A stretch of 64,000 nucleotides of DNA from Pontiella agarivorans (GTDB taxonomy: Bacteria > Verrucomicrobiota > Kiritimatiellia > Kiritimatiellales > Pontiellaceae), in assembly GCF_034531395.1 (NCBI RefSeq), contig NZ_JARVCO010000002.1, forward strand, positions 186,001 through 250,000. The letters are read 5' to 3'. Positions within the stretch are counted from its first letter, which is position 1, and the number at the start of each line of letters is the position of its first letter. Below, in pieces: positions 52,984-54,346 of this stretch. The position numbers and the translations under genes were made by a program. Under the pieces are notes generated by a model. The model was given only the letters and a program-made list of their open reading frames with translations. It searched no databases and had not been told where the DNA came from.

Positions 52984-53712
52984 ATGAATCTTATTCTGCT
53001 CCATCCTGATGAAGTAAAAAATAACCGCACGGTGCTGACTGATGCGCGGGCGAAACATATCCGCAAGGTGTTGAAGGCTGCGCCCGGGAAATCGCTCCGG
53101 GTGGGGGTGGTAAACGGACCGTTGGGGCATGGTGTGGTGGAGCGTATAGATTCTGAAGATGTGGAACTGGTATGTTCATTTGAAAAAAGTTTGCCGGCCC
53201 GTCCGAAGGTCGATCTGTTGCTGGCGATGCCCCGTCCGAAAGTGCTTAAACGTTTGTGGGCGCAGTTCGCCGCGCTGGGCGTTGGAAAGATTGTGTTGCT
53301 GCGCGCCGGAAAGGTGGAGCGCTGCTATTTTGACAGTCATGTCATCGAGCCGGATTTTTATGTCAATCTGCTGCTGGAAGGGTTGCAGCAGGCCCGGTGT
53401 ACGCATTTGCCGGAAGTGCAGATTGAGCCGTTGTTTAAACCCTATATCGAAGATCGGTTTGCAAACGATTTTTCCGAGCACTGGAAACTGCTTGCAGATC
53501 CTTCAGGTAAAAAGCGTATTCGCGATTTCCAATGTCCGGATGGTGCGCAGCGAACCGTCCTGGCCGTCGGTCCGGAAGGCGGTTGGACGGACTATGAACT
53601 GGAGATGTTGCGGGGGAAGGGGTTTGCGTTGCTCGGTATGGGGGATCGGATTCTTCGCACAGATACGGCTGTCGTAGGTTTGCTGTCGCTTCTTCATGAA
53701 TGGGCGGAATGA
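52984..53712 (+). CDS. rsmE: 16S rRNA m3U1498 methyltransferase RsmE
   Basis: RsmE N3-methylates U1498 of 16S rRNA. At 242 aa it has a PUA-like N-terminal domain (HIRKVLKAAPG) and a SPOUT knot with the C-terminal LAVGPEGGWTDYE and LRTDTAVVGLL. Start ATG 52984 (MNLILLHP) is 79 bp from surE. Two CACACCTGCGCAGGTGTG-type sites follow its stop. Confidence 0.93.
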   Translation: MNLILLHPDEVKNNRTVLTDARAKHIRKVLKAAPGKSLRVGVVNGPLGHGVVERIDSEDVELVCSFEKSLPARPKVDLLLAMPRPKVLKRLWAQFAALGVGKIVLLRAGKVERCYFDSHVIEPDFYVNLLLEGLQQARCTHLPEVQIEPLFKPYIEDRFANDFSEHWKLLADPSGKKRIRDFQCPDGAQRTVLAVGPEGGWTDYELEMLRGKGFALLGMGDRILRTDTAVVGLLSLLHEWAE

Positions 53713-53716
53713 GGTA

Positions 53717-53734
53717 CACACCTGCGCAGGTGTG
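53717..53734. promoter_or_regulatory. Operator-like palindrome, site 1 (CACACCTGCGCAGGTGTG)
   Basis: A perfect 18-bp palindrome 4 bp after the rsmE stop and 56 bp before the double winged-helix gene. No loop and no T-run, so it is more likely a protein-binding site than a terminator. Confidence 0.75.
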
Positions 53735-53749
53735 CATTTTTGGAAGGTG

Positions 53750-53767
53750 CACACTTGCGCAGGTGTG
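53750..53767. promoter_or_regulatory. Operator-like palindrome, site 2 (CACACTTGCGCAGGTGTG)
   Basis: It differs from site 1 at one base (T for C at position 6). Its centre is 33 bp from site 1, close to three helical turns, so bound dimers would lie on nearly the same face. It ends 23 bp before the regulator start codon. Confidence 0.75.
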
Positions 53768-53790
53768 AGCGTACGCGTAACAATGTCCGT

Positions 53791-54321
53791 ATGAGCGAAG
53801 ATCTGATCTGGAGACAACTGCGGGTGTTGGCTAATCCGTTGCGAATCGAAATGCTGACTCTGCTCAGTACCGATTCGAAGTTGTATGTGCAGCGGATTGG
53901 AGAGTTGCTCGGCTGTGCAGAGGATATTGCGAGTAAGCATCTGCAGAGACTGGGAGATGGTGGATTTCTGCGTTCGTGGCGCAGAGGGCGATATCTCTAT
54001 TATGGAATCAATACTGAGCATCCGCTGGTTGCAGCACTTCTTGAGGAGATCGATCGGCCGGAAGCGGATATCGGAACGATCCTTAAAAGTCTGACGGCAT
54101 TTACCCATGAGCGGCGTATTCAAATCGTTCGCTCACTGATGACGGAACCGAAGTCTGTTGATGCACTCAGAGTGGAAACGGGTATTTCCGGAGATGCGCT
54201 GTTGCGGCATTTAAGAAAGCTTGAAGCGCGGGAAATGGTTTTTCACAGAGAGGGGTGCTGGTCGGTTGCTGTTCCGCGGAACCGCCTCAGACAGTGGCTC
54301 ATGGAATATGTAACAGGTTAA
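53791..54321 (+). CDS. Tandem double winged-helix (ArsR-like) regulator
   Basis: A 176-aa protein made of two similar winged-helix units, residues about 5-73 and 96-163. Each has the ArsR-type run-in (RVLANPLRIEMLTLLS; AFTHERRIQIVRSLM) and a recognition helix (AEDIASKHLQRL; SGDALLRHLRKLE). One chain thus imitates a dimer. Only two cysteines, C42 and C156, are present, so no classical metal site is evident. Three matching palindromes flank the gene, suggesting it controls itself and pgpA. The start is ATG 53791, chosen because homology starts there and longer forms would cover site 2. Confidence 0.75.
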   Translation: MSEDLIWRQLRVLANPLRIEMLTLLSTDSKLYVQRIGELLGCAEDIASKHLQRLGDGGFLRSWRRGRYLYYGINTEHPLVAALLEEIDRPEADIGTILKSLTAFTHERRIQIVRSLMTEPKSVDALRVETGISGDALLRHLRKLEAREMVFHREGCWSVAVPRNRLRQWLMEYVTG

Positions 54322-54328
54322 TAATGCG

Positions 54329-54346
54329 CACACCTGCGCAGGTGTG
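54329..54346. promoter_or_regulatory. Operator-like palindrome, site 3 (CACACCTGCGCAGGTGTG)
   Basis: Identical to site 1. It lies between the regulator stop (54321) and pgpA, ending 4 bp before the pgpA ribosome-binding site CAGGAG, so binding could block pgpA transcription or roadblock read-through. Confidence 0.75.

Follow-up and report, generated by a model that had tools for sequence, protein, structure and literature searches.

A palindrome-bracketed double-ArsR regulator of Pontiella agarivorans and its dispersed sites at conserved positions within genes

The regulator gene and its product

The window analysed here, a 64,000-nt stretch of the Pontiella agarivorans genome, holds a regulator gene (start codon ATG) that lies between an rsmE-like and a pgpA-like gene and is bracketed by three copies of an 18-bp palindrome. 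Two of the copies are exact and one carries a single change; two lie upstream of the gene, with their centres 33 bp apart, and one lies before pgpA. This arrangement, described in an earlier note on the same DNA, proved exact as stated, and so did the remark that the window contains no other copy: no fourth 18-mer was found in the window with up to 3 mismatches allowed, and 100 dinucleotide shuffles of the window gave 0 copies, none being expected by chance. The features of the locus are as follows.

52984-53712, plus strand: rsmE-like gene, the conserved left neighbour (synteny surE-rsmE-regulator-pgpA-TPR)
53717-53734, no strand: distal upstream site, exact CACACCTGCGCAGGTGTG, a perfect palindrome 4 bp past the rsmE stop codon; in the same place in orthologues L034 and L047
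53750-53767, no strand: proximal upstream site, CACACTTGCGCAGGTGTG (one change), its centre about 33 bp 5' of the regulator start codon; the proximal position is conserved in the family
53791-54321, plus strand: regulator gene encoding the 176-aa P0001, a single chain of two ArsR-type winged-helix domains (Pfam HTH_5/HTH_20, NCBIfam NF033788, structure model)
54329-54346, no strand: downstream site, exact CACACCTGCGCAGGTGTG, in the gap between the regulator and pgpA; found in orthologues, several of which have it over the regulator stop codon
54362-54811, plus strand: pgpA-like gene, the conserved right neighbour (congener identity 75-93%)

We compared the P. agarivorans NLcol2 assembly (G000; 12 contigs, 4,436,865 bases) with relatives, which carry the other G numbers. 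The order surE-rsmE-regulator-pgpA-TPR is syntenic in G000, G005, G014 and G024, and rsmE-regulator-pgpA is also found in G007, G010, G021 and G022, while in nine congeners (including G025, G017, G001, G026, G027 and G003) rsmE adjoins pgpA with neither regulator nor palindrome between them. G009 was considered as a genome having sites without a regulator, a reading we rejected, as a divergent regulator, with TGCGCA palindromes, is present at its rsmE-pgpA locus. Full-length orthologues at the locus share only 33-49% identity with the window protein, compared with 81-87% for pgpA, indicating that the regulator evolves fast.

P0001 scored 36.3 bits against PF01022 (cut-off 22) and 79.1 bits against NF033788 (cut-off 55), in two stretches each, and was modelled with confidence (mean pLDDT 96) from an alignment of 43 relatives. 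Domain 1 of the model matched the folds of CadC (Z 14.6, rmsd 1.9 over 87 residues) and CzrA (Z 14.3); no solved double-ArsR chain was found in this fold search, whose matches cover mainly domain 1. Pfam and NCBIfam scans returned ArsR/MarR-type HTH families, with no ParB or TetR family and no transposase domain. Like the ArsR/SmtB proteins (CadC, CzrA, SmtB), whose winged-helix family both halves of its chain match, P0001 has a palindrome upstream of its own gene. It departs from their single-domain chains, which act as homodimers, in fusing two domains within 176 aa, lacks the metal-sensing ELCxCD-type cysteine pair, at whose recognition-region position GELLGCAEDIASK stands, and is accompanied by dispersed sites, a dozen or more in number and for the most part outside promoters (see below).

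Members of the family occur in 36 of the 97 sampled genomes of the class, with a maximum of six per genome, and relatives are also present in many Kiritimatiellota and Verrucomicrobiota assemblies. In most members an N-terminal helix carries a cysteine (WRTCR; alignment A1, position 10 of the window protein), which is replaced in the window protein (WRQLR) as well as in the G005 and G014 regulators; its conservation in the remaining members may point to redox or ligand sensing there. One member of 350 aa (L043:1483-2532) has a C-terminal half that, read from sequence, looks YpsA or molybdenum-carrier-like and is fused in frame. Literature searches on ArsR proteins in Kiritimatiellota, on tandem ArsR proteins with intragenic sites and on Pontiella regulators, which mostly covered papers other than subscription ones, returned nothing on this system.

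Palindromes upstream of the family's genes and elsewhere in the genome

The position of the proximal upstream site recurs across the family. A palindrome with at least 9 bp paired per arm was found within 150 bp 5' of the start codon in 37 of 52 homologues, as compared with 5 of 405 control windows, and the nearest one is centred at a median distance of 28 bp (typically 20-40 bp) from that codon. Many homologues have a second palindrome further upstream and a dozen have one after or over the stop codon, a pattern with which the window's regulator agrees. Given this recurrence, at about 30 bp upstream of the gene start, the regulator likely autoregulates, presumably as a repressor.

Searching the whole of G000 (4.44 Mb) yielded 14 sites of the TGCGCA class, three at the regulator and 11 elsewhere, against 1 match for the entire search with a reversed-pattern control. 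Ten of the 11 off-locus sites fall within ORFs of unrelated genes, as called by a codon-usage gene caller (the call at L012 being uncertain). They are translated in three different frames, as HTCASV, HLRRC or TPAQVC, and some lie close to the gene start, others as far as three quarters of the way into the gene. The genes that bear them, namely hrpA, pabBC, hemN, a cobW-like gene, a B12-radical SAM gene and genes for a lactonase, lipases and a glycosyltransferase, have no common functional theme.

These results bear on the earlier note's view that the layout is that of an autoregulated repressor which also controls the next gene. The family-wide palindromes support the first half of that view, while specific control of pgpA fared poorly: the note would have counted the 18-mer in many unrelated places as a refutation, and such places are where sites of this class turned up; nine congeners keep rsmE and pgpA together without the regulator and its palindromes; and in several relatives the third site lies over the regulator stop codon rather than in a pgpA leader. 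A repressor acting on its own gene and pgpA only would fit the locus layout and the conserved proximal site, but the 11 other sites, the nine congeners and the frequent overlap of the stop codon make it very unlikely, and the dispersed, conserved sites largely refute it as the whole story.

Two further paralogues in G000 have palindrome classes of their own. A TTCGAA class (9 sites) is assigned by position to the paralogue at C12:144756-145268, which has two such sites upstream, and the third paralogue (C12:340432) goes with CATACATTGCAATGTRTG, of a TTGCAA class that numbers 25 sites (control 2), including ten pairs 58-60 bp apart. By our own gene calls, 14 of 15 loci of the TTGCAA class lie outside genes, and at about six of these the flanking genes are convergent. 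Among the sites examined in other genomes, 15 of 21 in G005 and 13 of 15 in G022 lie in genes, while those in G061 and G064, genomes from other taxonomic families, are intergenic, so that in-gene placement does not hold throughout the protein family. Along the chromosome, the sites of G022 are spaced more evenly than expected at random (p=0.007) and those of G005 are not (p=0.56), and no chromosome-scale pattern was established.

Several arrangements stood out among these sites. A TTCGAA pair with a spacing of 61 bp (L020:3528-3606; G000 C6:56527-56605) takes up the interval that separates the 3' ends of an ftsZ-like and a metallo-hydrolase gene, which are convergent, and is conserved in G025 (L373, L375). 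L021 has another TTCGAA pair, where a pyruvate phosphate dikinase-like gene has its 3' end. In G048, family-type palindromes form groups at C33:54462-55172 and 71879-72586, with steps of about 345-350 bp, as opposed to the single or paired sites seen elsewhere.

An RNA hairpin was considered as the main function of the palindromes and was not favoured, as their central four bases (GCGC, TCGA, TGCA, GATC, CCGG or CTAG) are nearly always self-complementary, a property not required of a hairpin loop, and as the extended flanks are genome-specific beyond mere self-complementarity.

Conservation, co-variation and decay of the dispersed sites

Segments of 12 site-bearing proteins were searched over 28 genomes of the genus, followed by local alignment. 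Sites were found at the identical codon, with an offset of zero, in the hrpA, pabBC, hemN, dAAase, cobW-like, radical SAM, lactonase, lipase and glycosyltransferase (GT) genes. The hrpA site is found in ten genomes besides G000 (the copy in G025 being degenerate), with cores that read GCGC, TCGA, TCGG or the asymmetric TCAC/TGTGAA. The lactonase gene of G022 has its site just past the gene end rather than inside.

The sequence of the sites varies together with the copies beside each genome's own regulator. In G005, an identical 26-mer, CAAGCACACTTGCGCAAGTGTGCTTG (a CAAG...CTTG palindrome), is found in hrpA, dAAase and hemN and at both sites upstream of the regulator; in G021, TTCGAA occurs in hrpA, dAAase and abh, matching its regulator; and in G024 the asymmetric TGTGAA core is common to in-gene and regulator sites. 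In-gene sites were closest to the regulator palindromes of their own genome (genome-label permutation, p=0.0002 for 26-mers and p=0.0012 for 18-mers, values that are indicative since the genomes are related), and the presence of a regulator was associated with that of sites over 97 genomes (Fisher p=3.5e-10). The sole clear mismatch was observed in G014, where the core next to the regulator is GATC (L036) and the in-gene core is GCGC (L082, L144, L145). In G002, whose assembly is 72% complete, a consistent set of CCGG-core sites was found and a matching regulator was not, and G027 has the hrpA site with no regulator at the locus.

At the dAAase site the motif is TTCGAA in G000 and TGCGCA in G005 and G022, indicating that different paralogues can serve a single position. 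Loop length varies among dAAase orthologues, while for hemN, cobW, radSAM, GT and FeADH the site-less orthologues are equal in length and ungapped, and the sites in these five genes thus arose by substitution. This bears on whether the palindromes might be mobile elements of the REP, RPE or MITE type that owe their spread to the gene they bracket or to another enzyme. In REPtrons (PMC3733652), too, a gene stands between palindromes whose copies are scattered, some of them within ORFs (and, in our case, also between convergent genes), and Rickettsia palindromic elements are comparable; the tandem palindrome in G021 hrpA resembles that at the G021 regulator. However, the protein between REP palindromes is a Y1 tyrosine transposase (RAYT), whereas P0001 is of ArsR type with no transposase domain, and REP and RPE copies are inserted, whereas the present sites were made by substitution, keep fixed positions between species and change their cores in place. 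Insertion of palindromes was accordingly rejected for most genes, and we consider a mobile origin extremely unlikely. In the G021 hrpA gene (L157), the two adjacent palindromes are arranged as they are after the G021 regulator gene (L039:2013-2052).

G025, a single-contig assembly, offers a natural absence: the regulator is cleanly missing between rsmE and pgpA, and the counterparts of the TGCGCA sites are degenerate in hrpA (CATACCTGCACGGGTGAG), radSAM (CATACCTGTGCAGGGGTG) and FeADH (CACACTGGCGCAGGTGAA), although the lactonase site is intact despite the absence of the regulator. TTCGAA sites persist in GT and dAAase, as do the pairs at the ftsZ and ppdK ends, and these match a paralogue that G025 retains. 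The third paralogue, which is 78% identical between G025 and G000, is accompanied in G025 by 13 sites in which TTATAA-like cores replace TTGCAA, every one of them at a place orthologous to that of a G000 site; the core differs in place at 10 of the 10 loci found, and paired sites keep a spacing of 59-60 bp.

The possibility that the in-gene sites are inert, or mere decoys that titrate an autoregulated protein, has a precedent in the intragenic PhoB sites of E. coli, which are inert and not conserved (PMC10294691), and titration would need no particular genes. Yet titration alone predicts positional turnover, and the sites described here are conserved at exact codons, vary with the regulator-side copies and decay without the regulator, which renders this explanation unlikely.

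To summarize, comparison of the genomes shows a set of sites that is linked to the regulator, conserved in position, co-varying with the regulator-side copies and decaying where the regulator is absent. Given this linkage, association, co-variation and decay, we regard the family palindromes as binding sites and the dispersed ones as very probably functional targets of this protein family.

A putative role on the chromosome

We propose that the regulator controls its own gene and binds the chromosome in a sequence-specific way. Its two ArsR-type winged-helix domains are fused, and one chain may read both halves of a palindrome as a single-chain pseudo-dimer. The two sites 5' of the start codon would serve autoregulation and the third would close the gene, while the same protein would bind about 11 further chromosomal sites, nearly all in unrelated genes. 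These sites have been kept at fixed codon positions through the divergence of the genus, their sequence changing along with the regulator-side copies. At them, the bound protein would have a generic role, marking or organising the chromosome, as opposed to responding to a signal at one promoter. This generic nucleoprotein role is suggested by the indifference of the sites to promoters, by the lack of relation among the genes that carry them, at varying positions, by their switching between paralogues at some places, and further by the use of convergent intergenic regions by the sister classes. We give a probability of roughly 0.5 to this reading, a family of self-regulated chromosome-binding proteins with promoter-independent, dispersed sites that co-evolve with them and with a putative chromosome-scale role. 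Counting against it are the G014 core mismatch, the CCGG-core set of G002, the hrpA site of G027, the intact lactonase site of G025, the spacing in G005 and the intergenic sites of G061 and G064.

The main rival is a conventional regulon with unusual operators, in which binding within genes would block elongation or act on an internal promoter, so that a dozen genes are co-regulated by a signal. ArsR-type proteins are normally repressors, the same genes keep their sites across species, as gene-specific control would have it, and the G022 lactonase site, just after its gene, retains the association with that gene; the intragenic sigma54 sites of E. coli, many of which are conserved, are a precedent for functional in-gene sites (PMC4591121). 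On the other hand, the site-bearing genes share no functional theme, a site can be close to the start of its gene or as much as three quarters of the way into it, TTGCAA sites between convergent genes serve no promoter, and the dAAase site carries the motifs of different paralogues in different genomes. Taken together, such a regulon is possible but doubtful, and we favour chromosome organisation over a local transcription roadblock as the role of the in-gene sites.

Proteins comparable to the chromosome-binding protein proposed here are Noc of Bacillus subtilis, with about 70 chromosomal sites (PMC4331003), and SlmA of E. coli, both of which recognize palindromic sites scattered over the chromosome in a sequence-specific manner. 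These two are nucleoid occlusion factors, which inhibit division over the nucleoid and whose sites are depleted near the terminus. Noc is ParB-like and SlmA TetR-like, whereas the fold of P0001 is of ArsR type; a link to division, as in Noc and SlmA, is represented here by just one paralogue's TTCGAA pair at the ftsZ 3' end; and the rapid joint change of protein and sites sets the present family apart from both. Compared with the sigma54 and PhoB cases, which also involve sites within genes, positional conservation is here combined with a changing site sequence and a fast-evolving regulator.

Bacterial binding sites within genes are often considered noise. Many of the sites described here are fixed at exact codons, overriding the local protein sequence, and track the regulator-side motif between species. 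Their joint change with a fast-evolving protein is more than an ordinary one-gene repressor would require, and provides an example in which a regulator shifts specificity jointly with a dozen or more sites. As genomes with and without the regulator form natural pairs within one genus, the function of intragenic sites becomes directly testable. Tentatively, and at rather less than even odds, we suggest that Kiritimatiellota and Verrucomicrobiota possess an undescribed chromosome-marking system, in which fast-evolving, single-chain double-ArsR paralogues each have their own dispersed palindromes, protein and sites (also those in coding sequences) change specificity jointly, and several parallel sets within a cell would organise or insulate the chromosome. 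The finding may reveal chromosome organisation in a poorly known phylum.
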